Source: Acidobacteriota bacterium
GTDB taxonomy: Bacteria > Acidobacteriota > Vicinamibacteria > Vicinamibacterales > UBA8438
Assembly (NCBI GenBank): GCA_002712885.1
Contig: PAUN01000056.1
Location: 33,135-70,490 of the forward strand
Direction: 5' to 3'
Length of the DNA: 37,356 nucleotides
A model generated the notes under the pieces. It was not told where the DNA came from and made no database searches. It saw only the letters and a list, made by a program, of their open reading frames with translations. Every line of letters starts with the position of its first letter. Position 1 is the first letter of the stretch. The position numbers and the translations under genes were made by a program. Below are positions 3,680 through 13,602 of this stretch, one piece after another.

Positions 3680-3717
3680 CACAATCACATCTACGTTCGT
3701 CGCTGAAGGAGTTGAAG

Positions 3718-4665
3718 ATGAAACGCAGTATCTACTTGGCAGGCCTCACGGCCCTAGGCCTCATCGCGACCATGGTCACTTTCGAGGCCCGACAAGACCG
3801 GGCGAGCCTCACCGTGCATGAGATCGCCGACAACCTGTATATGCTGGCCAATGCCCCCTCCGTGGAAGGCATGGGCGGTGGCGGTAACACCGCGATTTTT
3901 GTAACCGACGGCGGCGTCACCTTGGTCGACACGAAGATCAAAGGCTACGGCCAGGACATCCTCGCCGCGGTACGCGAGCTCACCGACAAGCCGGTGACGA
4001 CGATCATCAACACCCACACGCACTGGGACCATTCGGGCTCGAACCCGGAGTTTCCGGATTCGGTCAACTTCGTGGCGCACGAGAACACCCGCGGGCACAT
4101 GGCGAGCCAGGATTGTGATGACGGCGCCGGGTTCCAGGGAGGCTCGATCAAGAACTGTGAATCGTTCACAGGTGCCAACGTGACCTACCTGCCGAAAACG
4201 ACCTTCTCCGATACGCTGACGCTCTTCAGCGGAGCGGACCAGATCGACCTGTATTACTTCGGTCGCGGCCACACCGACGGCGACATCTTCGTTGTCTTTC
4301 GCGCCGCACGCGTGATGCACTCGGGCGACATGTTCGCGCGCCGGGGGCTGCCTTTCCTCGACGTGCCGAACAGCAACGGAAGCGCCGTCGAGTTCGGTGA
4401 GACCCTCAAGCGCGCGATCAGTGGGATCTCGAACGTCGATACCGTGATTCCCGGACACAACCCGATCCCGCTCCCATGGAATGACTTCGTCAAGTACGAG
4501 GGCTTTTACAACGACCTGGTGATGAAGGCGCAGCAAGGGAAAGCGGCCGGTCGTTCGGTCGACGACGTCGTGTCGTCGTATCGCGTGCCGAGTGAGTACA
4601 GCAACTATGCAGCGCCCGAGGATCGTGTCCGGGCTACCGTGCAGTATCTGTTCGACGGACAGTAG
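3718..4665 (+). CDS. Secreted metallo-beta-lactamase-fold hydrolase
   Basis: Binuclear zinc hydrolase, 315 aa, substrate unknown. The ATG at 3718 is chosen over the in-frame TTG at 3712 because GAAGGAG (3705-3711) sits 6 nt before it. A signal peptide or N-terminal helix covers residues 1-22. The metal site is complete: HTHWDH with H100, H102, D104 and H105, then GRGHTDGD with H185, HSGDMF with D204, and VIPGHNP with H247. The gene is convergent with qhpB (16 bp apart) and divergent from a PQQ dehydrogenase. Similar hydrolases next to quinoprotein genes have been named quinoprotein relay system zinc metallohydrolases; whether this is one is inference from position only. Confidence 0.88.
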   Translation: MKRSIYLAGLTALGLIATMVTFEARQDRASLTVHEIADNLYMLANAPSVEGMGGGGNTAIFVTDGGVTLVDTKIKGYGQDILAAVRELTDKPVTTIINTHTHWDHSGSNPEFPDSVNFVAHENTRGHMASQDCDDGAGFQGGSIKNCESFTGANVTYLPKTTFSDTLTLFSGADQIDLYYFGRGHTDGDIFVVFRAARVMHSGDMFARRGLPFLDVPNSNGSAVEFGETLKRAISGISNVDTVIPGHNPIPLPWNDFVKYEGFYNDLVMKAQQGKAAGRSVDDVVSSYRVPSEYSNYAAPEDRVRATVQYLFDGQ

Positions 4666-4681
4666 GAAACGGCGAACGTCC

Positions 4682-5770
4682 CTAGTTCGGCACCACGAAC
4701 ATCTGTGACATGTCGCCGGGGAGCGTGATGGTGCGCAGGTAGCGGTAGGTCGAAGCTTCGTACAGGTCGATCGTGTCGCCGGCCTGGTGGATGTAGAGGA
4801 TCTGGCCGTTGGTACTGGGCGTAACGGCCATCCGCGGTCGCCCGTCAATGGCCTGGCGACGCTCGAGCCGCCGCCCCTCCAGGTCGAAGGTCCAGAACTC
4901 GTAGTGCCCGATCTCGCTGAGCAGCGCATGGGCCTTCCGGCGGCCCGGGGCCAACGCGAATGACCCTACGGGCTCGGACGGACCGAGCGTGTAGAAGTCG
5001 ACATCCCGCTCGGCCAAATTGATGCGCGCGATGCCCATCAGGCTGCGATTCTGCACCTGATCCCGTACCCGGAAGATACCGGAGTAGAACCCGGGTTCTT
5101 CATTCGGATCGTAGCGAAATCCGAAGTTGAACCGCCCGACTCCCCCTTCGTCGAGTTGGGACAGTTCCCACCGCTCGACCTCCTCGAATCCGGTGGTCTC
5201 CAGGGCCACTATCTCGTCGCCAAAGAGGTAGAGCAGATCGCCGCTCGGCGAGAACAGCATGTTCACACTGACCCGTTCCTCGCCGTCCGGCCACGGGATC
5301 TCGCGCAGCACCTCGTGGGTGGCGAGGTCGACCTGCACCAAAGCACGTGGCGCGATCTCAAATCTGTCGATCTGCTTCGTGGCAGTATCGATCAACAGAA
5401 TGATGGACGAGTGATCCGGGGCGGCGCGGAAACTCCGGATACGAACCTTGGTCTGTCCTTCGCTCAACGTCAGCGTGTCGATGGTGCGGCGGGTCGCGAC
5501 GTCCATCACCTCGAGCTGCTCGAACGTGCGGTCTCGCATGTAGAGCCGGGTCCGGTCCTCGGACAGCGCCATGCTGCTGGGCGGCCCGTCGAGCGTCATC
5601 GTGATGTCATCCACCACCTGTTCGGTCGCCTCATCGACGACAAAGACACGGCCCGGGTACCCGCCGACGTAGATAGTGCCAGTGCCGCCGGTGAGGTCCG
5701 GGGCGGTCTGGGCGGCCACACTTCCAGCGAGCGTGACGCTGCCGACGAGCAGGAAGAAGAAAAATCGCAT
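4682..5770 (-). CDS. qhpB: Quinohemoprotein amine dehydrogenase beta subunit (beta-propeller)
   Basis: Periplasmic seven-bladed propeller subunit of QHNDH, on which the CTQ-bearing gamma subunit sits and which forms part of the active-site pocket. 362 aa from the ATG at 5770, which directly precedes a signal peptide (MRFFFFLLVGS, cleavage near VAAQ/TAPD); an in-frame GTG at 5803 would add 11 residues and cannot be excluded. YncE/YVTN-type blade motifs recur: TIYVGGYPGRVFVVDEAT, LYMRDRTFEQLEVMDVATR, ILYIHQAGDTIDLYEAST. Last gene of the qhpG-A-D-C-B block, 45 nt after the qhpC stop (12 nt if the GTG is used). The fold alone would not give the name; the call rests on the fold, the length and the position next to an unmistakable qhpC. 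Synonym in Pseudomonas: peaD (from memory). Confidence 0.88.
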   Translation of the reverse strand: MRFFFFLLVGSVTLAGSVAAQTAPDLTGGTGTIYVGGYPGRVFVVDEATEQVVDDITMTLDGPPSSMALSEDRTRLYMRDRTFEQLEVMDVATRRTIDTLTLSEGQTKVRIRSFRAAPDHSSIILLIDTATKQIDRFEIAPRALVQVDLATHEVLREIPWPDGEERVSVNMLFSPSGDLLYLFGDEIVALETTGFEEVERWELSQLDEGGVGRFNFGFRYDPNEEPGFYSGIFRVRDQVQNRSLMGIARINLAERDVDFYTLGPSEPVGSFALAPGRRKAHALLSEIGHYEFWTFDLEGRRLERRQAIDGRPRMAVTPSTNGQILYIHQAGDTIDLYEASTYRYLRTITLPGDMSQMFVVPN

Positions 5771-5815
5771 CGACTGGTCCGGATAGCGCTGGTGCCCTGA
5801 CACACTCAGCCCACG

Positions 5816-6172
5816 CTACGGAAAGATGAGGTCGATCTTCCGCCAATCCTTCTGGGCAGCGGCGCACTTGCTCGTCCAGTCCGGCGCGTGGTTGAGCTGG
5901 TCTGGCACATGCGCCGGCCAATAGCATCCGAGGTGGCAATCGAACAGATCCCGTTCGACCGGCTGACACAACCCGGCCGTGCCGCCATTGCGGTCCGCCT
6001 CCCAGCCCGGCTGGAACGCCAGGGAGCACCCGAGCGGGATGTGGGGCCCTTCCGGCTGCTGGGGTGGACCGGAGCCCTGCTGCTGCAGCGCGACGACATC
6101 GCCCGCAGGCGCGGGGTTGGCGGCGGCCGCGATCCGGGCGGCTTTCCGATTGATAGGGGTCAGATGCTTCAT
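5816..6172 (-). CDS. qhpC: Quinohemoprotein amine dehydrogenase gamma subunit, CTQ precursor
   Basis: 118-aa ribosomally made precursor of the catalytic subunit carrying cysteine tryptophylquinone. In the Paracoccus gamma subunit the thioethers are Cys7-Glu16, Cys27-Asp33 and Cys41-Asp49, and CTQ is Cys37-Trp43. Here the residues fall at C49/E58, C69/D75, C83/D91 and C79/W85, with identical spacing throughout. The motifs GLCQPVERDLFDCHLGCYWP and AHVPD also match the family. The first 40 or so residues form a non-hydrophobic leader (starts MKHLTPINRKAARIAAA) with no Sec signal, as expected of a peptide recognised by QhpD and QhpE. Placing the N-terminus by homology predicts a leader of about 42 residues against 28 in Paracoccus. 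Oddities: Tyr84 where Paracoccus has Trp, and an additional Cys103. Starts 7 nt after qhpD. Confidence 0.96.
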   Translation of the reverse strand: MKHLTPINRKAARIAAAANPAPAGDVVALQQQGSGPPQQPEGPHIPLGCSLAFQPGWEADRNGGTAGLCQPVERDLFDCHLGCYWPAHVPDQLNHAPDWTSKCAAAQKDWRKIDLIFP

Positions 6173-6179
6173 GGCGTTC

Positions 6180-7616
6180 TCACGAGTCGAACCGGTTCAG
6201 AAAACGGGGACTCCGTTCGGCGATCTCGCCGTAGATACGCAGGCAGATATCGGTCCACTCGCGGATCCAGTCACAGTAATGCAAGTTCGGATGCGTGGTC
6301 GTGCCGTAGCGCGTATGGGCCTCATGGTAGCACCCCCCTGAACACAGCGGCCGAGCCCAGCAGGTGTGGCAATCGGTCTTGTGCGCAATGTGATTGCGCT
6401 CGAGAAAGGCCTGCTGCGCCTCCCGGTCAAGCCCCTCAGTCACGCTGCCGAGATTATGTTCGTCCGACCCGGCGAAACGATGGCACAGCGCGACGTCACC
6501 CCCCGTGGCCACGCCGATGAGCCCGAGTCCGGCGCCACACGGATACGCCTTGCTGACGCCCTTGTGGATCTCCCCCAAGGTTTCGCTGACGTTCGAAAAC
6601 CCGTGGTGCTGACCGGCCAGCGCGGCGCGAAGAAACTCATCGGCCAACGCTTTAAACTGCGTGACCATCTGGTCGAACCCCGAGCCGTCGAGGGCGTGGT
6701 CGCGACCGGGTGACGTGGTGACTGGGGCGAACCCCACTTCCTGGAACCCGATCTCTTCGGTCAAATGCTGATAGATACCGAGGATGTCGTTAACTTGCGA
6801 GGTGAGCGTCACCCGGGCGCCGATGGGCCGGCTGCGATGCCGTTGGAGCAGCTCGCGGACCCGCGGCAGCATCACGTCGTAGCTGCCGCTCCCGTCATGA
6901 AACACGCGAAATCGGTTCTGCATGTCGCGCGGTCCATCAACGGAGACGGTCACCGAGATGTCTTCCTGGGCCAGGAACTCGATCATCTTGGTGGTGAGCA
7001 GCGTCGCGTTGGTCGTGAGGTTGAATTCGACCCGTTTGCCGTGCGCCTCAGCCTGGGCCTTGGCATATGGCACGGCCCGGCTCAGCACCGGATAGTTCAT
7101 CAAGGTCTCGCCGCCGAAGAAGCTGACGTGGACCACCTCGACCTCACCCGACTCGCGAAACAGCAGGTCGATACTCTTCCGCGCCGTCTCGTCAGTCATG
7201 AACTTGGGCTGCGCGCCGTTGGTGGTATCGACGATCTTGTCTTCGCTATACTCGTAGCAGTAGCCACAACTCAGGTTGCACTGGTTCGTGACGTTGAGGA
7301 CCGCCGTCGTGAGGGGAAACGACTCGACCGGGGTCAGCGGAATGATGGCCGGCATCTCCGGCACCGGTTCGGCGGCGGGCCGGACCGCGTGGATCTGCTC
7401 GAGCTCGGTCAAGAGGGCATCGAGGTCCATCGCCGGAAACTCCGGCGACACGCGGGCAATCAACTCGGCGCGGTCGACCGGCTGGTCACCCAGCGCGTCG
7501 ATCAAGGCGCCCGCCGGGGCATCCAGCGCAAAGACGGCCGCGCTGGGGACCAGATACAAATACCGCTGGTCGGCGGCCTCGAACGCATGGTGTTCTCCGA
7601 GGCAAAGCATGGTCAT
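6180..7616 (-). CDS. qhpD: Radical SAM/SPASM peptide maturase forming gamma-subunit thioethers
   Basis: Cytoplasmic radical S-adenosylmethionine enzyme, 478 aa, the usual size for QhpD. It installs Cys-to-Asp/Glu thioether cross-links in the QhpC precursor. The radical SAM cluster motif is C113-x3-C117-x2-C120 (NQCNLSCGYCYEYS), followed by FFGGETLMN (residues 166-174) for SAM binding. The C-terminal SPASM/auxiliary-cluster region holds C360, C378, C416, C419, C425, C429, C448 and C458, including DCHTCWARPLCSGGCYHE. Residues 1-100 have the peptide-recognition-like make-up typical of RiPP maturases. Its ATG overlaps the qhpA stop (ATGA) and is preceded by GTGGAG 5 nt upstream, so translation is coupled. 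Synonym peaB (from memory). Confidence 0.95.
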   Translation of the reverse strand: MTMLCLGEHHAFEAADQRYLYLVPSAAVFALDAPAGALIDALGDQPVDRAELIARVSPEFPAMDLDALLTELEQIHAVRPAAEPVPEMPAIIPLTPVESFPLTTAVLNVTNQCNLSCGYCYEYSEDKIVDTTNGAQPKFMTDETARKSIDLLFRESGEVEVVHVSFFGGETLMNYPVLSRAVPYAKAQAEAHGKRVEFNLTTNATLLTTKMIEFLAQEDISVTVSVDGPRDMQNRFRVFHDGSGSYDVMLPRVRELLQRHRSRPIGARVTLTSQVNDILGIYQHLTEEIGFQEVGFAPVTTSPGRDHALDGSGFDQMVTQFKALADEFLRAALAGQHHGFSNVSETLGEIHKGVSKAYPCGAGLGLIGVATGGDVALCHRFAGSDEHNLGSVTEGLDREAQQAFLERNHIAHKTDCHTCWARPLCSGGCYHEAHTRYGTTTHPNLHYCDWIREWTDICLRIYGEIAERSPRFLNRFDS

Positions 7617-9295
7617 GGACGCTCCACTGCGGTCGGATCCCAGCGCAGGTAGTTCGGCACGGTCACCAGCAGGTGAGCCCGCGCGCGGAGCGTGCGCGAC
7701 CCCGCCGGATAGGTGGCCACGACCCAGACGTCGCCCACATTGTTTCGGTTCCCGTTGCGCTCCGCGTTTGGTCCGTCGAGGGCCGGGGTAAACCGGCCCT
7801 GCCCGTCGATGGCGCCGACATACCGGAGGTCGTCGTCTCCGAACGTCGCCGCGTATTCTTCGAGGGCCCAGGTCGCGTCGACCAGCCCCAGATCGAGGTC
7901 GTCGTCGGTGTTCGCTTCACCGTCCGGCCCATCGTGATACGCCCGCGCTTCGAATTGTTGAAACTGCTTCGGCACGCGGACCCCACCGACCCGGGCCATG
8001 CCGGCATCAGGCGTCACCGCGATCCGGGAGACCGTGTCGTAGACCATCAGGGCATCAGCGAGCGAGGTCTGGTCGAGAAAGAGGTCTCGACGGCCGACCC
8101 GCGCATCGCCATCGACCCGTACCTCGGCCGTAACGAGACCCGCGGTGGCACTGACGACACGGAGCACCTCCAGCCCCGGGCCAAGGTCCAGGTCCGCGGT
8201 GGTCGCGGAAGCCAGATGCTCGCCGTACAGCTGCAGCGTGACCGTCTGCCCGACCTGAATCGACGCGGGGTGCACGCCGGTCACGACCGGGGCAGTCCCC
8301 ACGCGCTCGAGGGCGATGTCGAGGCCGATCTCGTCGTAGCCGCCCGTGAACCAGCGCCCCTGCATCGACTGCCAGTCGCGGTCGACGAACATCACCTCGC
8401 GGAGGCCATCCGTATCGTTGGCGCCTTCGAGCGACCGGCCTCGCCACTGAAACCCGGTGTAGACGATGGCCTGTCCGACCCTGGTGACACGACGTCCATC
8501 TCGCGCGTAGACATAGCTGGTGTCGGTCGTGAATTCGTCGTCGGCACCTGGCGTCGGGGTGATGGTGACCTGACCGTAGACGGCGCCCACACCCGGCGCA
8601 TGGCCACGCAGGGCCCAGATGCCCGCGATCCGCGGAGCACGCATCGTAGCCGACCATGCGGACCACTCCGGAGACTCGAGCGGGAAACGCTCGCTGAGAT
8701 GCTCCACCGCATGATCAACCGGCTGGGGTTCATCGTTCTCTCCCGACCGTCGGAACGCCTGAAAATCTGTGAATGGATAGTAGCCCCTATGCATCGCGGT
8801 CACGAGCCGCCATTCCTCGGCGGTCCGGCGCTGGCTCACGACCCGCCCCATCGAGTGGCAGGTGGTGCAAGTCTGCTTGACGTCGGCGTCCTCGTACGCT
8901 TGGTCATCCGACCGACGCTCGGCCTCGAACGCAGCTGGACCGGCTTCTTCGGGAGCCAAACCAAGGTTGTTGGCCAGGTACCGGACGACCTCACGCGCCG
9001 TCTCGGGAGCGATCGTCAGATCATTCAGCATCACCATCCTGCGGATGGTCTGCTGCCAGCCTTCGGGCGTGGTGCGCCGAAATGAGATGCGAGACAGCCG
9101 ACCAGCGTCGTCTGGGGCATGGCATGACCCGCACGCCTCACGGACGGTGGCGTCCGGGATCGGGATGCCCGACTCGTCGGCCTCCGCCGCCGCTGCGGTT
9201 CCCTGGGCTGCAGCCATCGACGGCGTCACGGTCACGAGCCCCAGCCCAACGACCAGCAGGCAGTGCAGACGAATGGCAACGGGTGGCAGGCGCAT
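7613..9295 (-). CDS. qhpA: Quinohemoprotein amine dehydrogenase alpha subunit, dihaem cytochrome c
   Basis: Periplasmic electron-transfer subunit of QHNDH, taking electrons from CTQ through two haems c to an external carrier. 560 aa from the ATG at 9295, just before a signal peptide (MRLPPVAIRL start, cleavage near AAAQ/GTAA); the frame is open up to 9502, but that extension does not look like protein. Haem motifs are CGSCH (C55, C58, H59) and CTTCH (C143, C146, H147). Domains in order: haem domain (about 48-205), beta-barrel domain (about 220-320, APRIAGIWALRGHAPG onwards), an Ig/IPT-like domain (about 325-405, GVHPASIQVGQTVTLQLYG) and a last beta domain to 560. This is the four-domain plan of the family. 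The stop overlaps the qhpD start. A 128-nt gap with a hairpin separates it from qhpG. Confidence 0.94.
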   Translation of the reverse strand: MRLPPVAIRLHCLLVVGLGLVTVTPSMAAAQGTAAAAEADESGIPIPDATVREACGSCHAPDDAGRLSRISFRRTTPEGWQQTIRRMVMLNDLTIAPETAREVVRYLANNLGLAPEEAGPAAFEAERRSDDQAYEDADVKQTCTTCHSMGRVVSQRRTAEEWRLVTAMHRGYYPFTDFQAFRRSGENDEPQPVDHAVEHLSERFPLESPEWSAWSATMRAPRIAGIWALRGHAPGVGAVYGQVTITPTPGADDEFTTDTSYVYARDGRRVTRVGQAIVYTGFQWRGRSLEGANDTDGLREVMFVDRDWQSMQGRWFTGGYDEIGLDIALERVGTAPVVTGVHPASIQVGQTVTLQLYGEHLASATTADLDLGPGLEVLRVVSATAGLVTAEVRVDGDARVGRRDLFLDQTSLADALMVYDTVSRIAVTPDAGMARVGGVRVPKQFQQFEARAYHDGPDGEANTDDDLDLGLVDATWALEEYAATFGDDDLRYVGAIDGQGRFTPALDGPNAERNGNRNNVGDVWVVATYPAGSRTLRARAHLLVTVPNYLRWDPTAVERP

Positions 9296-9408
9296 ACGTA
9301 ACGGCTCCAGTCGTAGAACCTGCCCTTTGTAGCACACGTCCCGTAGAAGCGGAGAGGAATTCGCGCCAAGCAAGCCGCGCACAGTGCGGCTCACGGCCGC
9401 GGAGACTT

Positions 9409-9421
9409 GGGGCGCAGCCCC
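9409..9421. repeat. GC hairpin just after the qhpG stop
   Basis: Read on the minus strand, GGGGC-TGC-GCCCC follows the qhpG stop codon by two bases. It is a 5-bp stem with a 3-nt loop and no T-tract. The same core appears just after the TonB-receptor gene at 27444-27458. It could reduce read-through from qhpG to qhpA or protect the 3' end of the mRNA. Confidence 0.45.
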
Positions 9422-9423
9422 AT

Positions 9424-10947
9424 CTAAGTGATAACCAGCGCCCCCTTGGCCAACAGCACCGACAAGGCCCCCAGAAAGTCGGGCAAGCTGACCGGGGGGC
9501 ACCGCCGAACATACGCCTCGAAGAGGTCCGGCACCTGCTCATACTCAGGGGCGAGTTCCACCAGCCGCACCAGATCGATATCCCGCAGGAACCGGATGCC
9601 ATGACCGTCGGCTGGCCAGGTCGGGAGGACGAGCCGCTCTTCGAGGACCACCTCCCGGGTGGTAAGCGCCGGCCTCGCTTCGATCCGGAGCCTGTCGCCG
9701 CGACGCAATCCGATCTGGCGTGCTCCACGAAGCGCCTCGAAGGCGGCGAGCACGGCTGCATCCTCGCGCAGCCGGGCGATGTCGACATCCGCCGCCGGTT
9801 CTGGGCCCGCTGGGTCCCCGGCGCCTGCGCGTCCTGTCCAGAACGGGTGCAGGTGACGCGCGGCAGCTTCGGCGAAGAAGGTTGTCGACTGCCGGACGGA
9901 GGCGTCGTGAATCTCCCGCTCCCGCGTTGTAAACAGATCGAGGGCCACACCGGCGAGCGAGACGTTGGTCAACGAAGTGTGGACGACGACCGCCGCCAAC
10001 CACGCCGACGCGAGCGCCTTCTTGACGCCGTAGGACGACAGGGGGTCGATGAACGAGGCCGCGTCGCCCACCAGCAGGACGCCCGGACCACCGCAGACGT
10101 CTGCGTGGTACAGGGATGCGTCGCAGCCCCACGGGACCGTGTTCCGGGTCGCGCCCTCGAGCAGACCACGCAGTGCCGCCGTCTTACCGATCTCACGTTC
10201 GTATCGGGAAATCACGCCGCGATCGCCCCCCAAGTCCGTGGTGCGAGGGTCGACCATGACCGTGACGTAGCGTCGCAGTGGGGTGACCGGCACCGACCAC
10301 GCCCAGCCATCCGCATAGGTCTCGACCAGGGTGTGACTGGCATCGGCGAGGCCCCAGCCATCCGGCCGCGTCCAGGTCGCCGCCAAGGCGAGCGTCGTCT
10401 GGGTGGGGTCCGCGACCCGGTAGCCACGTCGAGCCACCACGCCGGTCCGGCCGGAGCAATCGAGCACGAAGGAGGCCTGCACCTCGTGGCGACTCTGGTC
10501 ATCGGTGCCGTACTCGACGGTGGACACCGCGGGACCAGGGCGACCGTTCGCTGACGCGAGCCGTACGTCGCGCACGAGCGCGCCCCTCACCACCTGGGCC
10601 CCGGCCGAGGCCGCGAGCCGCAGCAACAGTGCGTCGAAGTCGTGCCGCACCACCTGCCACCCGGTGGCCCCGTCGACGAACGCGGCCGTCCGCGTGGTGC
10701 CCTCACCCCACCACACCGTGTTGCCGGTGCTGGTCAGGAACCCGCCATTGTTAATGGCGTCGGTGGCGCCGAGCAGGTCGAACAGCTTCTCGCAACTGGG
10801 TGGCAGCGATTCGCCCAGCGACCGCGTGTGGTCGACCGTTCGTGTCAACAACCGAACGGAGTGCCCCCACGAGGCCAGCAACCGGGCCGCGGCGGCCCCG
10901 GCCGGTCCACCCCCAATGATGACCGCGTCGAACGGTTCGCTGACCAC
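9424..10947 (-). CDS. qhpG: FAD-dependent monooxygenase for CTQ tryptophan hydroxylation
   Basis: Flavin monooxygenase of the tryptophan-halogenase-like/PHBH fold, 507 aa. In the Paracoccus system QhpG adds oxygen to the tryptophan of the cross-linked gamma peptide, preparing it for CTQ formation. FAD-binding features: N-terminal GGGPAG (12-17) in DAVIIGGGPAGAAAARLL, a conserved arginine/GES region (RSLGESLPP, 42-50), VLDCSGRTGVVARR near 161-174, and the second flavin motif GDAASFIDPLSSYG (294-307). No in-frame ATG lies upstream; the start is a GTG at 10947. It heads the minus-strand qhp block and diverges from qhpF. Other flavin halogenase-like enzymes could look similar; the qhp context decides the call. 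Confidence 0.9.
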   Translation of the reverse strand: MVSEPFDAVIIGGGPAGAAAARLLASWGHSVRLLTRTVDHTRSLGESLPPSCEKLFDLLGATDAINNGGFLTSTGNTVWWGEGTTRTAAFVDGATGWQVVRHDFDALLLRLAASAGAQVVRGALVRDVRLASANGRPGPAVSTVEYGTDDQSRHEVQASFVLDCSGRTGVVARRGYRVADPTQTTLALAATWTRPDGWGLADASHTLVETYADGWAWSVPVTPLRRYVTVMVDPRTTDLGGDRGVISRYEREIGKTAALRGLLEGATRNTVPWGCDASLYHADVCGGPGVLLVGDAASFIDPLSSYGVKKALASAWLAAVVVHTSLTNVSLAGVALDLFTTREREIHDASVRQSTTFFAEAAARHLHPFWTGRAGAGDPAGPEPAADVDIARLREDAAVLAAFEALRGARQIGLRRGDRLRIEARPALTTREVVLEERLVLPTWPADGHGIRFLRDIDLVRLVELAPEYEQVPDLFEAYVRRCPPVSLPDFLGALSVLLAKGALVIT

Positions 10948-11053: not shown

Positions 11054-12907
11054 GTGATCGATCCGCACTTCCGCCGCGCTTTGACCTACCTGACGCCGTA
11101 CTGGGGACGACTGACCCTGGTGCTGGTGCTGAGCCTGGTCTCGACGGCAACGTCGTTGCTGATTCCGCTGCTCTCGCAGTGGCTCATCGATGACGCGATC
11201 CTTGGGGCAGACCCGGGCGCCCTGCGCCTCGTGGTGCTGTCGTTTGTCGGCACCACGGTGCTCGGGTTCGTGCTCAACGTCTGGAGCGGGCTCCGATACA
11301 CGCGGGTCTCGGCCGACATCCTCTTCGACATGCGGCTGGCGCTCTACCGACACCTGCAAGCGCTGTCGCCGCGCTTCTACGCGCGGACCCGGTTCGGCGA
11401 CATCATGTCGCGGCTGAACACCGACATCGGCGAAATTCAGCGCGTGGCGGCCGAAGTGGTGCTGGCCTGGGTGGGCAACGTCCTGTTCCTGCTGGGCGCC
11501 GTCGGCATGCTCGCATACCTCGACATGCAGCTCTTCCTGGTCGGCATCGCCCTGCTGCCCCTCAGCCTGTGGGCGTTGGTGCACTACCGTCGTCGCCTCG
11601 AAGGACGCGTCGCCACCCTGCGCGATCGCAGCGCCGACATCGGCAGCTTCCTCATCGAGACCCTGCAGGGCGTCAAACTGGTCGTCACGTCCAACGCCCA
11701 GCCGCGCGAGGTGGCGCGGTTCCGGGAACGCAACGCCCGCTTCATCGACGCACTGATGGCGATGCAATGGACCAGCTATCTGTCCGGCGGGTTGCCTGGA
11801 GCGGTGCTCTCTGGCGGCTCCGCGCTCGTGTTCTTGTACGGAGGGCTCCGCGTCATCGACGGCACGCTCACGCTGGGGACGCTCGTGGCGGTCATGGCCT
11901 ACCAGATGCGGTTGTTCGGGCCGGTGCAGGCCCTGATGGGGCTCTATACAAGTCTGGCGACGGTGCGGGTCTCCCTACGGCGGGTCCATGAAATTCTGGA
12001 TGTCGCGCCGGAAGTGGTCGAAAGCGCTACGCCCGTCTCTCTCTCCGCCGTGCGTGGCGAGATCCAGTTGGACGATGTCACCTTTTCGTTCGATCGCGGT
12101 GCGCCGGTGCTGGAGCATGTCAGCGTGTGGGTCGCGCCGGGCGAGTGCCTCGCGATCGTCGGACCGAGCGGCGGCGGCAAGAGTACCGTCGCGGACCTGT
12201 TGCTGCGTCTGGTCGACCCCGATGCGGGGTGCGTTCGGTTGGATGGACACGACCTTCGGACCTTGCGACTGGCGGAACTGCGGACCCACGTCGCGCTGGT
12301 CGACCAGGAGCCGTCGGTATTCCACGCCTCCGTCGCTGACAACATTCGCTATGGGCGGCCCGACGCCAGCGACTCGGCGCTGGAGGCGGCCGCGCACGCC
12401 GCCGGCCTCGACGCGTTCATCGCGACGTTGCCAGACGGCTTCGAGACCACGCTGGGGGAGCGAGGCGCCGCCTTCTCGGCCGGAGAGCGTCAACGCGTGG
12501 CGGTGGCCAGAGCGTTGCTCGCGGACCCGACCGTGCTCGTGCTCGACGAAGCGACCGCGGCGCTCGACCCCCAGTCAGAGCGGAAGGTCATCGACGGCTA
12601 CGAGGCCGTCATGCGGGGGCGCACAACAATCCTCATCACCCACCGGGCCTCGGTGGCCAGCCGGGCCGACCGGGTCGTGGTGCTGGACGGCGCGCGGATT
12701 GTCGAAGAGGGAACGCCGGCCGACCTCTTGACACGATCGGGCCGGTTCGCCGAGCTCTTCGCCGTAGATGAGGATGGCTCCAGCGATCCGCCTCGGTCAC
12801 TGACGGAAGCCGGACATCACCTGGCCGCCGAGGCGATCCCCGCGGCGCCGACGACCGGTCCGTCGGCGGCAAAGATCTCGCCATCGTCCGAGACGAACAG
12901 CGGGTGA
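11054..12907 (+). CDS. qhpF: ABC exporter of the QHNDH gamma subunit
   Basis: Inner-membrane half-size ABC exporter (MsbA/type I layout), 617 aa; in Paracoccus QhpF is needed to move the matured gamma subunit to the periplasm. Residues 1-320 form the six-helix transmembrane domain (first helices near 13-35 and 50-75). The nucleotide-binding domain shows Walker A GPSGGGKST (370-378), Q-loop LVDQEP, signature FSAGERQRVAVARAL, Walker B VLVLDE (D498, E499) followed by the D-loop ALDPQSE, and the switch histidine in LITHRAS. A 40-odd residue tail rich in Ala, Pro and Ser follows the domain. The start is a GTG at 11054 with a weak ribosome site. The stop overlaps the start of qhpE (TGATG), so the two are translationally coupled. 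Confidence 0.9.
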   Translation: MIDPHFRRALTYLTPYWGRLTLVLVLSLVSTATSLLIPLLSQWLIDDAILGADPGALRLVVLSFVGTTVLGFVLNVWSGLRYTRVSADILFDMRLALYRHLQALSPRFYARTRFGDIMSRLNTDIGEIQRVAAEVVLAWVGNVLFLLGAVGMLAYLDMQLFLVGIALLPLSLWALVHYRRRLEGRVATLRDRSADIGSFLIETLQGVKLVVTSNAQPREVARFRERNARFIDALMAMQWTSYLSGGLPGAVLSGGSALVFLYGGLRVIDGTLTLGTLVAVMAYQMRLFGPVQALMGLYTSLATVRVSLRRVHEILDVAPEVVESATPVSLSAVRGEIQLDDVTFSFDRGAPVLEHVSVWVAPGECLAIVGPSGGGKSTVADLLLRLVDPDAGCVRLDGHDLRTLRLAELRTHVALVDQEPSVFHASVADNIRYGRPDASDSALEAAAHAAGLDAFIATLPDGFETTLGERGAAFSAGERQRVAVARALLADPTVLVLDEATAALDPQSERKVIDGYEAVMRGRTTILITHRASVASRADRVVVLDGARIVEEGTPADLLTRSGRFAELFAVDEDGSSDPPRSLTEAGHHLAAEAIPAAPTTGPSAAKISPSSETNSG

Positions 12908-13602
12908 TGACCGACAGGCCGATTCGCGTGGCCGTGATTGACAGCGGCGTGAACGCCACCCACCCGCACATCGGTGGCGTGGCGGGAGGCGTCGCCATCG
13001 CGTCCGACGGCTCGACCCACCCTGACTATCTCGACCGGCTTGGACATGGGACCGCGGTGGCGGCCGCCATCAAGGAACGCGCGCCCGGGGCTGAGTTATT
13101 CTGCGTGAAGGTGTTTCACCGCGACCTCACCGCCACGATCGCGGCGCTCATCGCCGCCATCGACTGGTCCGCGGGCCAGCGGGCGGATCTGATCAACCTC
13201 AGCCTGGGCACGTCGAACCCCGACCACGCCGCCGGGTTGCGGGACGCCGTAGAGCGGGCCACTGACGCCGGTGCATTGCTGGTCGCGGCCGGCACGAGTG
13301 GCGGGGTGGACTACCTGCCCGGTAGTCTCACGGGCGTGGTCAGGGTCGAACTCGACTGGGCGTGTCCGCGGCTGGGGGCAACCGTGTCCGGGGAGGGCGC
13401 CGCGGCGGTGTGCGGCGCATCGGGTTACGCGAGACCGATGCCCGGTGTGTCGCCCGAGCGCAACTTGAAGGGGATCAGTTTCGCCGTCGCGAACACCACG
13501 GGTGTTCTCGCCCGAGAGCTGCGACCCGGTAGCCGAGCTACTGTGTTGACTGCTATCGAGGCCCTACGACGCGTGAGCACCGGGATCGAGCAACGCCCGT
13601 AG
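12907..13602 (+). CDS. qhpE: Subtilisin-like leader peptidase of the QHNDH gamma subunit
   Basis: Small S8-family serine protease, 231 aa, without signal peptide or prodomain, as expected for a cytoplasmic enzyme that removes the QhpC leader after cross-linking. The catalytic triad is D12 (VAVIDSG), H47 (LGHGTAVAAA) and S191 (GISFAVANTTG). The ATG at 12907 overlaps the qhpF stop; a GTG at 12904 in the same frame is less likely. The block LLVAAGTSGG has Thr where S8 proteases usually have the oxyanion-hole Asn (AAGN). At 231 aa it is much shorter than secreted subtilisins, in line with its dedicated role. Last gene of the plus-strand qhp arm. Confidence 0.88.
   Translation: MTDRPIRVAVIDSGVNATHPHIGGVAGGVAIASDGSTHPDYLDRLGHGTAVAAAIKERAPGAELFCVKVFHRDLTATIAALIAAIDWSAGQRADLINLSLGTSNPDHAAGLRDAVERATDAGALLVAAGTSGGVDYLPGSLTGVVRVELDWACPRLGATVSGEGAAAVCGASGYARPMPGVSPERNLKGISFAVANTTGVLARELRPGSRATVLTAIEALRRVSTGIEQRP

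Follow-up and report, generated by a model that had tools for sequence, protein, structure and literature searches.

A divergent Acidobacteriota gamma-subunit precursor of quinohemoprotein amine dehydrogenase with a clade-fixed fifth cysteine and a predicted longer mature N-terminal tail

Results

The window analyzed here, a stretch of 37,356 nucleotides from an Acidobacteriota bacterium, contains a 118-amino acid open reading frame at 5816-6172 on the minus strand that is an intact qhpC gene. QhpC is the small cross-linked gamma subunit of quinohemoprotein amine dehydrogenase (QHNDH), a bacterial amine-oxidizing enzyme. In a profile search the protein scored above the curated cut-offs of both QhpC families, PF08992 (4.9e-32, 110.2 bits, cut-off 25) and NF037958 (120.6 bits, cut-off 50), and its residues 47-118 align without a gap to the solved gamma subunits of Paracoccus and Pseudomonas (1jju_C and 1jmx_G). 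Genes recognizable as qhpA, qhpB, qhpD, qhpE and qhpF, as well as a qhpG-like gene, all lie in the window, with the qhpG-like gene, qhpA, qhpD, qhpC and qhpB on the minus strand and qhpF and qhpE on the plus strand. The radical SAM/SPASM maturase gene qhpD (6180-7616) scored 567.7 bits against TIGR03906 (cut-off 453) with its ten cluster-type cysteines invariant, and its product also matched the PapB model at 2.6e-80, below that model's cut-off. The alpha-subunit gene qhpA, with two CxxCH motifs, occupies an open reading frame at 7613-9502 whose true start is probably further in (TIGR03908, 482.9 bits). The beta-subunit gene qhpB (4682-5803) is divergent, as its 55.8 bits against TIGR03907, the only family match of its product, fall below the cut-off of 223.2; it adjoins qhpC in relatives too. 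A flavin monooxygenase gene at 9424-10947 has NF049967 as its best family match and lies in the operon, but it missed that cut-off (215 bits against 240) and its product has S, N and G at the sites of R47, R70 and E84, so we refer to it as QhpG-like. On the plus strand, a qhpF-like ABC exporter gene (11054-12907; PF00664, PF00005) is followed by qhpE (12904-13602), which encodes a subtilisin-like leader protease that passed the NF049966 cut-off (166.8 bits, cut-off 165) and contains the catalytic triad motifs (D13, H48, S192). The gene is thus a QHNDH gamma-subunit precursor of a divergent branch within a complete Acidobacteriota qhp locus. Beside qhpB ends a plus-strand gene of the metallo-beta-lactamase fold (3712-4665), whose best NCBIfam matches were SoxH-related 'quinoprotein relay' hydrolases at 74.8 bits, far below the cut-off of 280.

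The cross-linked core of the protein (residues 49-118, 5819-6028 on the minus strand) contains the pairs C49/E58, C69/D75 and C83/D91 and the CTQ pair C79/W85, which correspond to C7/E16, C27/D33, C41/D49 and C37/W43 of 1jju_C and 1jmx_G. This gapless alignment agrees with a preliminary description of this DNA, which had found all eight residues in place, and all eight were invariant in the 162 distinct QhpC homologues that we gathered. With these residues in register, the thioethers and the CTQ are predicted for the window QhpC as well.

The same description had pointed to Cys103 (codon 5864-5866, minus strand) as an extra cysteine relative to Paracoccus and had suggested an alignment across phyla. 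Cys103 is indeed a fifth cysteine, at mature position 61, where 1jju and 1jmx have alanine, and the comparison of Acidobacteriota, one small phylum and Pseudomonadota showed it to be a clade feature. It was present in 85/85 distinct QhpC proteins from many Acidobacteriota families and from two genomes of the small separate phylum (G396 and G405), hereafter the Cys clade, and in none of 77 from Pseudomonadota, in which the site was A in 53, V in 15, T in 5, K in 2, I in 1 and S in 1. The relatives were the best 80 of at least 552 matches in a contig scan, together with a draw of Pseudomonadota genomes in which 7 had a match; since most of the Pseudomonadota proteins were selected because they resembled a Cys103-bearing query, any bias would favor cysteine there. 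Cys103 is not confined to proteins as divergent as that of the window, as it also occurs in otherwise ordinary QhpC of Acidobacteriota and the one other phylum that have a short tail and retain Trp42, the residue beside the CTQ tryptophan.

On a tree of QhpD, one branch (SH-aLRT 99) separates the Cys103 state from the others. Within the Cys clade, the side branches that split off first retain Trp42, which indicates that Cys103, Tyr84 and the long tail did not arise together. Changes were counted on this tree, whose two halves have equal total branch length (17.4). Cys103 changed 0 times in the Cys clade and 8 times in the other half, and the corresponding counts were 0 and 6 for Asp109, 1 and 13 for Asp/Glu114, and 0 and 15 for Pro46. 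As a control, QhpD of the Cys clade keeps its ten cluster-type cysteines in 101/101 proteins and a spare cysteine, Cys458, in 76/101. Cys103 is therefore a strong clade marker, invariant throughout the clade and under constraint. The spare QhpD cysteine, which lies near the C-terminus and was found in 0/84 Pseudomonadota, was considered as a counterpart of the change in the gamma subunit and rejected, as it is not invariant and mostly follows the clade with F or Y at site 42 rather than Cys103.

The first cysteine is residue 49 in the window protein and residue 35 in Paracoccus, confirming the reported excess of about 14 residues ahead of it, but these residues had been assigned to a longer leader, and that assignment needs correction. 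The earlier measurement ran up to the first cysteine, while here the cut site was used as the landmark. The alignment of the mature PDB chains begins at residue 29 of a Paracoccus precursor, directly past a VVA motif, and PMC7876137 describes a leader of 28 residues that is removed by QhpE. In the window protein, residues 24-28 read GDVVA and L29-Q comes next, which places VVA at 26-28 exactly as in Paracoccus. The predicted leader (6089-6172, ending in DVVA) is therefore of the standard 28-residue length, and the 14 additional residues fall in the mature N-terminal tail (residues 29-48, 6029-6088). This tail is predicted to read LQQQGSGPPQQPEGPHIPLG before C49, 20 residues compared with 6 in Paracoccus. 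An internal start that would shorten the leader is unlikely because members across the family share the start motif MKHLxPxNxKA, in which M1, N8, K10 and A11 did not vary among 78 sequences.

The tail ends in PH[IVYFL]P in 69/85 Cys-clade proteins, and Pro46 is present in 85/85 of them versus 1/77 from Pseudomonadota. In the 75 members of the clade whose motif is clear, 6 to 22 residues of tail precede the first cysteine. Leader length was 28 in 76/77 Pseudomonadota proteins and 20-42 in the Cys clade, so some relatives do have longer leaders, and a leader that is itself 14 residues longer and alters recognition by QhpD and QhpE would also account for the residues gained before the first cysteine. 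We consider that improbable for the window protein, in which VVA sits where it does in Paracoccus and the additional length comes after it. Assignment of the extra residues to the mature tail assumes that the same motif is cut, and QhpE of the Cys clade could cut elsewhere.

The third reported difference, a tyrosine in place of the tryptophan beside the CTQ tryptophan, was likewise placed in a wider setting. Tyr84 (codon 5921-5923, minus strand) does lie at the Trp42 site, but it is not special to the window protein. The site is Trp in 77/77 Pseudomonadota proteins, whereas the 85 Cys-clade proteins have F in 50, Y in 28, W in 6 and G in 1, and it changed 10 times in the Cys clade and 0 times in the Pseudomonadota half of the QhpD tree. 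Tyr84 is thus ordinary for the clade, and the aromatic site that it occupies is loosely conserved. According to the published docking model, a QhpG pocket accommodates Trp42, and an acidic patch of the gamma subunit, to which Asp12 and Asp39 belong, is proposed to contact a cluster in QhpG that contains Arg47 and Arg70; activity and/or affinity for QhpC suffered when R47 and R70 were mutated (PMC7876137). Gamma Asp12 was kept in 1/79 and Asp39 in 0/79 of the F/Y/G proteins of the clade, each being present in 77/77 from Pseudomonadota. On the other side of the interface, QhpG R47/R70/E84 read S/N/G in 23/27 clade members, in a numbering that was transferred by matching published residues. This numbering can be relied on only in the N-terminal part, from A14 to R89, and no sequence in our set reproduces all published positions. 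The change at site 42, the loss of both aspartates and the S/N/G state of QhpG together place Tyr84 within a docking surface that has changed on both sides in the clade, and these natural changes agree with the published model.

Discussion

Taken together, the evidence makes it very probable that the window gene encodes a QhpC precursor with a 28-residue leader, a longer mature tail and a clade-fixed Cys103. It resembles QhpC of Paracoccus denitrificans and Pseudomonas putida in its four cross-link pairs in register, its MKHLxPxNxKA start, the VVA that ends at residue 28, and its neighbors qhpA, B, D, E and F and a QhpG-like gene. It differs from them in having Cys103 for alanine, tyrosine at the Trp42 site, a mature tail that is 14 residues longer and contains PHIP, and an altered acidic patch, in which Asp12 and Asp39 are lost and Asp36 is gained. 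The Trp42-type QhpC proteins of Acidobacteriota (loci L002, L031 and L030) and of the small phylum (L043 and L114) share Cys103, Asp109, Asp/Glu114 and Pro46 with the window protein but, unlike it, keep Trp42, have a short tail and are without Asp36.

By homology, QhpD would bind the 28-residue leader and form the thioethers C49-E58, C69-D75 and C83-D91, the QhpG-like enzyme would dihydroxylate Trp85, QhpE would cleave after Ala28, QhpF would export the product, and the CTQ would arise between Cys79 and Trp85. The resulting subunit would carry a Gln/Pro-rich N-terminal tail, 14 residues longer than usual, with the conserved PHIP.

The preliminary description had proposed that Cys103 might form a further bond. 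Its invariance in the clade, the two acidic residues fixed alongside it and the lack of a conserved partner cysteine in QhpA or QhpB strengthen this proposal into a testable prediction, with the bond itself a candidate. Known QhpD links join a cysteine to an Asp or Glu at +6, +8 or +9. Downstream of Cys103 the only acidic residues left are Asp109 (codon 5846-5848, minus strand) at +6, in a C-X5-D arrangement with the spacing of C27-D33, and Asp114 (codon 5831-5833, minus strand) at +11. Both sites are acidic in 85/85 Cys-clade proteins, site 109 being Asp in all 85 and site 114 Asp in 83 and Glu in 2. For this reason a fourth thioether made by QhpD, from Cys103 to Asp109 or Asp/Glu114, is the most specific hypothesis for this candidate, and Asp114 is the less likely acceptor of the two. 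Outside the clade, Asp109 is also found in 65/77 Pseudomonadota proteins without Cys103, and site 114 is acidic in 26/77. Because the state of Cys103 changes once on the tree, its co-occurrence with Asp109 and Asp114 counts as one event and not as independent covariation. A thioether from i to i+6 would, moreover, be strained if residues 103-109 form a regular helix, and AlphaFold2 models of the window precursor (78 sequences, mean pLDDT 53.3) and of the Pseudomonas mature subunit (60 sequences, mean pLDDT 48.8) were of too low confidence for geometry. We therefore regard the fourth thioether as a tentative prediction; should it form, the mature gamma subunit would hold five covalent cross-links including the CTQ, an outcome that we hold equally tentatively. 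Asp78 (site 36) was rejected as a partner for Cys103, as it is missing from Trp42-type proteins that bear Cys103.

At least as likely, though still short of an even chance, is that Cys103 makes no bond and serves as a structural thiol, a small residue that is packed in the C-terminal segment and was fixed by neighboring changes. Pseudomonadota mostly have a small, hydrophobic residue there, and P46, G64, P90 and F117 are likewise fixed in the Cys clade alone, so that fixation by itself is no proof of a bond. Less easily explained by packing are the six residue types, including Lys, that the site takes in Pseudomonadota over 8 changes when there are none in the Cys clade, and the failure of the spare QhpD cysteine of the same clade to become invariant. 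Conserved cysteines of exported proteins often form disulfides, but an inter-subunit disulfide of Cys103 with QhpA or QhpB in the periplasm is highly improbable and was set aside, as clade QhpB has no conserved cysteine (0/87 at every column), window QhpB has none at all, and mature QhpA of the clade has no conserved cysteine beyond its four heme cysteines. A disulfide that links two gamma subunits, or one of them to another protein, is possible.

QhpD is a model for radical SAM enzymes that place several thioethers in one protein substrate, and a branch with one more invariant cysteine and two newly fixed acidic residues offers a direct test of how the number and position of its cross-links are set. 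PapB, which makes freyrasin, and the enzymes of other ranthipeptides share with QhpD the radical SAM chemistry that links Cys to Asp or Glu, but their products are peptide natural products rather than enzyme subunits and have no quinone cofactor. PapB is described as a QhpD homologue that makes Cys-Asp S-Cbeta thioethers (PMC8172795).

A separate observation concerns qhp operons in which qhpG was not detected. Among the 120 loci that span 10 kb or more, 11 have a pair of U32-family genes in or beside the operon, the share being 10/36 for loci without detected qhpG and 1/84 for those with it (Fisher 1.9e-5, a value that ignores relatedness and repeated loci per genome). The pairs were located at 9856-11885 in L153, 10918-12892 in L156, 10624-12659 in L167, 10774-12872 in L189, 4874-6981 in L043, 11837-13753 in L032, 9472-11617 in L050, 12047-14003 in L078 and 12464-14445 in L060. 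Carriers include Sedimenticola selenatireducens (L078) and a Thauera (L060) that has both the U32 pair and qhpG. Most Trp42-type loci (L153, L171, L189, L190 and L043) carry the pair instead of qhpG, unlike the window, which itself has a qhpG-like gene. The typical order is A-D-C-B-u1-u2-F-E (L156, L189 and L043). The u1 product is a divergent UbiV-like protein with exactly four invariant cysteines, and that of u2 resembles UbiU at 82-96 bits, so far below the 440-bit cut-off that it probably belongs to a different subfamily. Both UbiU and UbiV contain a [4Fe-4S] cluster, and their hydroxylation of ubiquinone precursors proceeds without O2 (PMC10470549). By analogy, the UbiU/UbiV-like pair points to an O2-independent stand-in for QhpG, the Trp dihydroxylase; such a route to CTQ would raise a new question in quinone-cofactor biogenesis, and no mention of U32 together with tryptophylquinone was found in the literature searched.

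Further departures from the usual gene content were seen among the loci. L153 (8016-14401) and L171 are second qhp copies in genomes G377 and G962, and each consists of a qhpD-qhpC-u1-u2-qhpF-qhpE cluster that encodes a CTQ-type gamma precursor without the usual alpha and beta subunits, there being no qhpA or full qhpB nearby. In L185 (8121-11391, G1065), qhpA, qhpC and qhpB are adjacent and no qhpD was found within the 19 kb read. In L177 (7327-10289, G923), the gamma-beta gene pair is tandemly duplicated (C-B-C-B) within one qhp operon.
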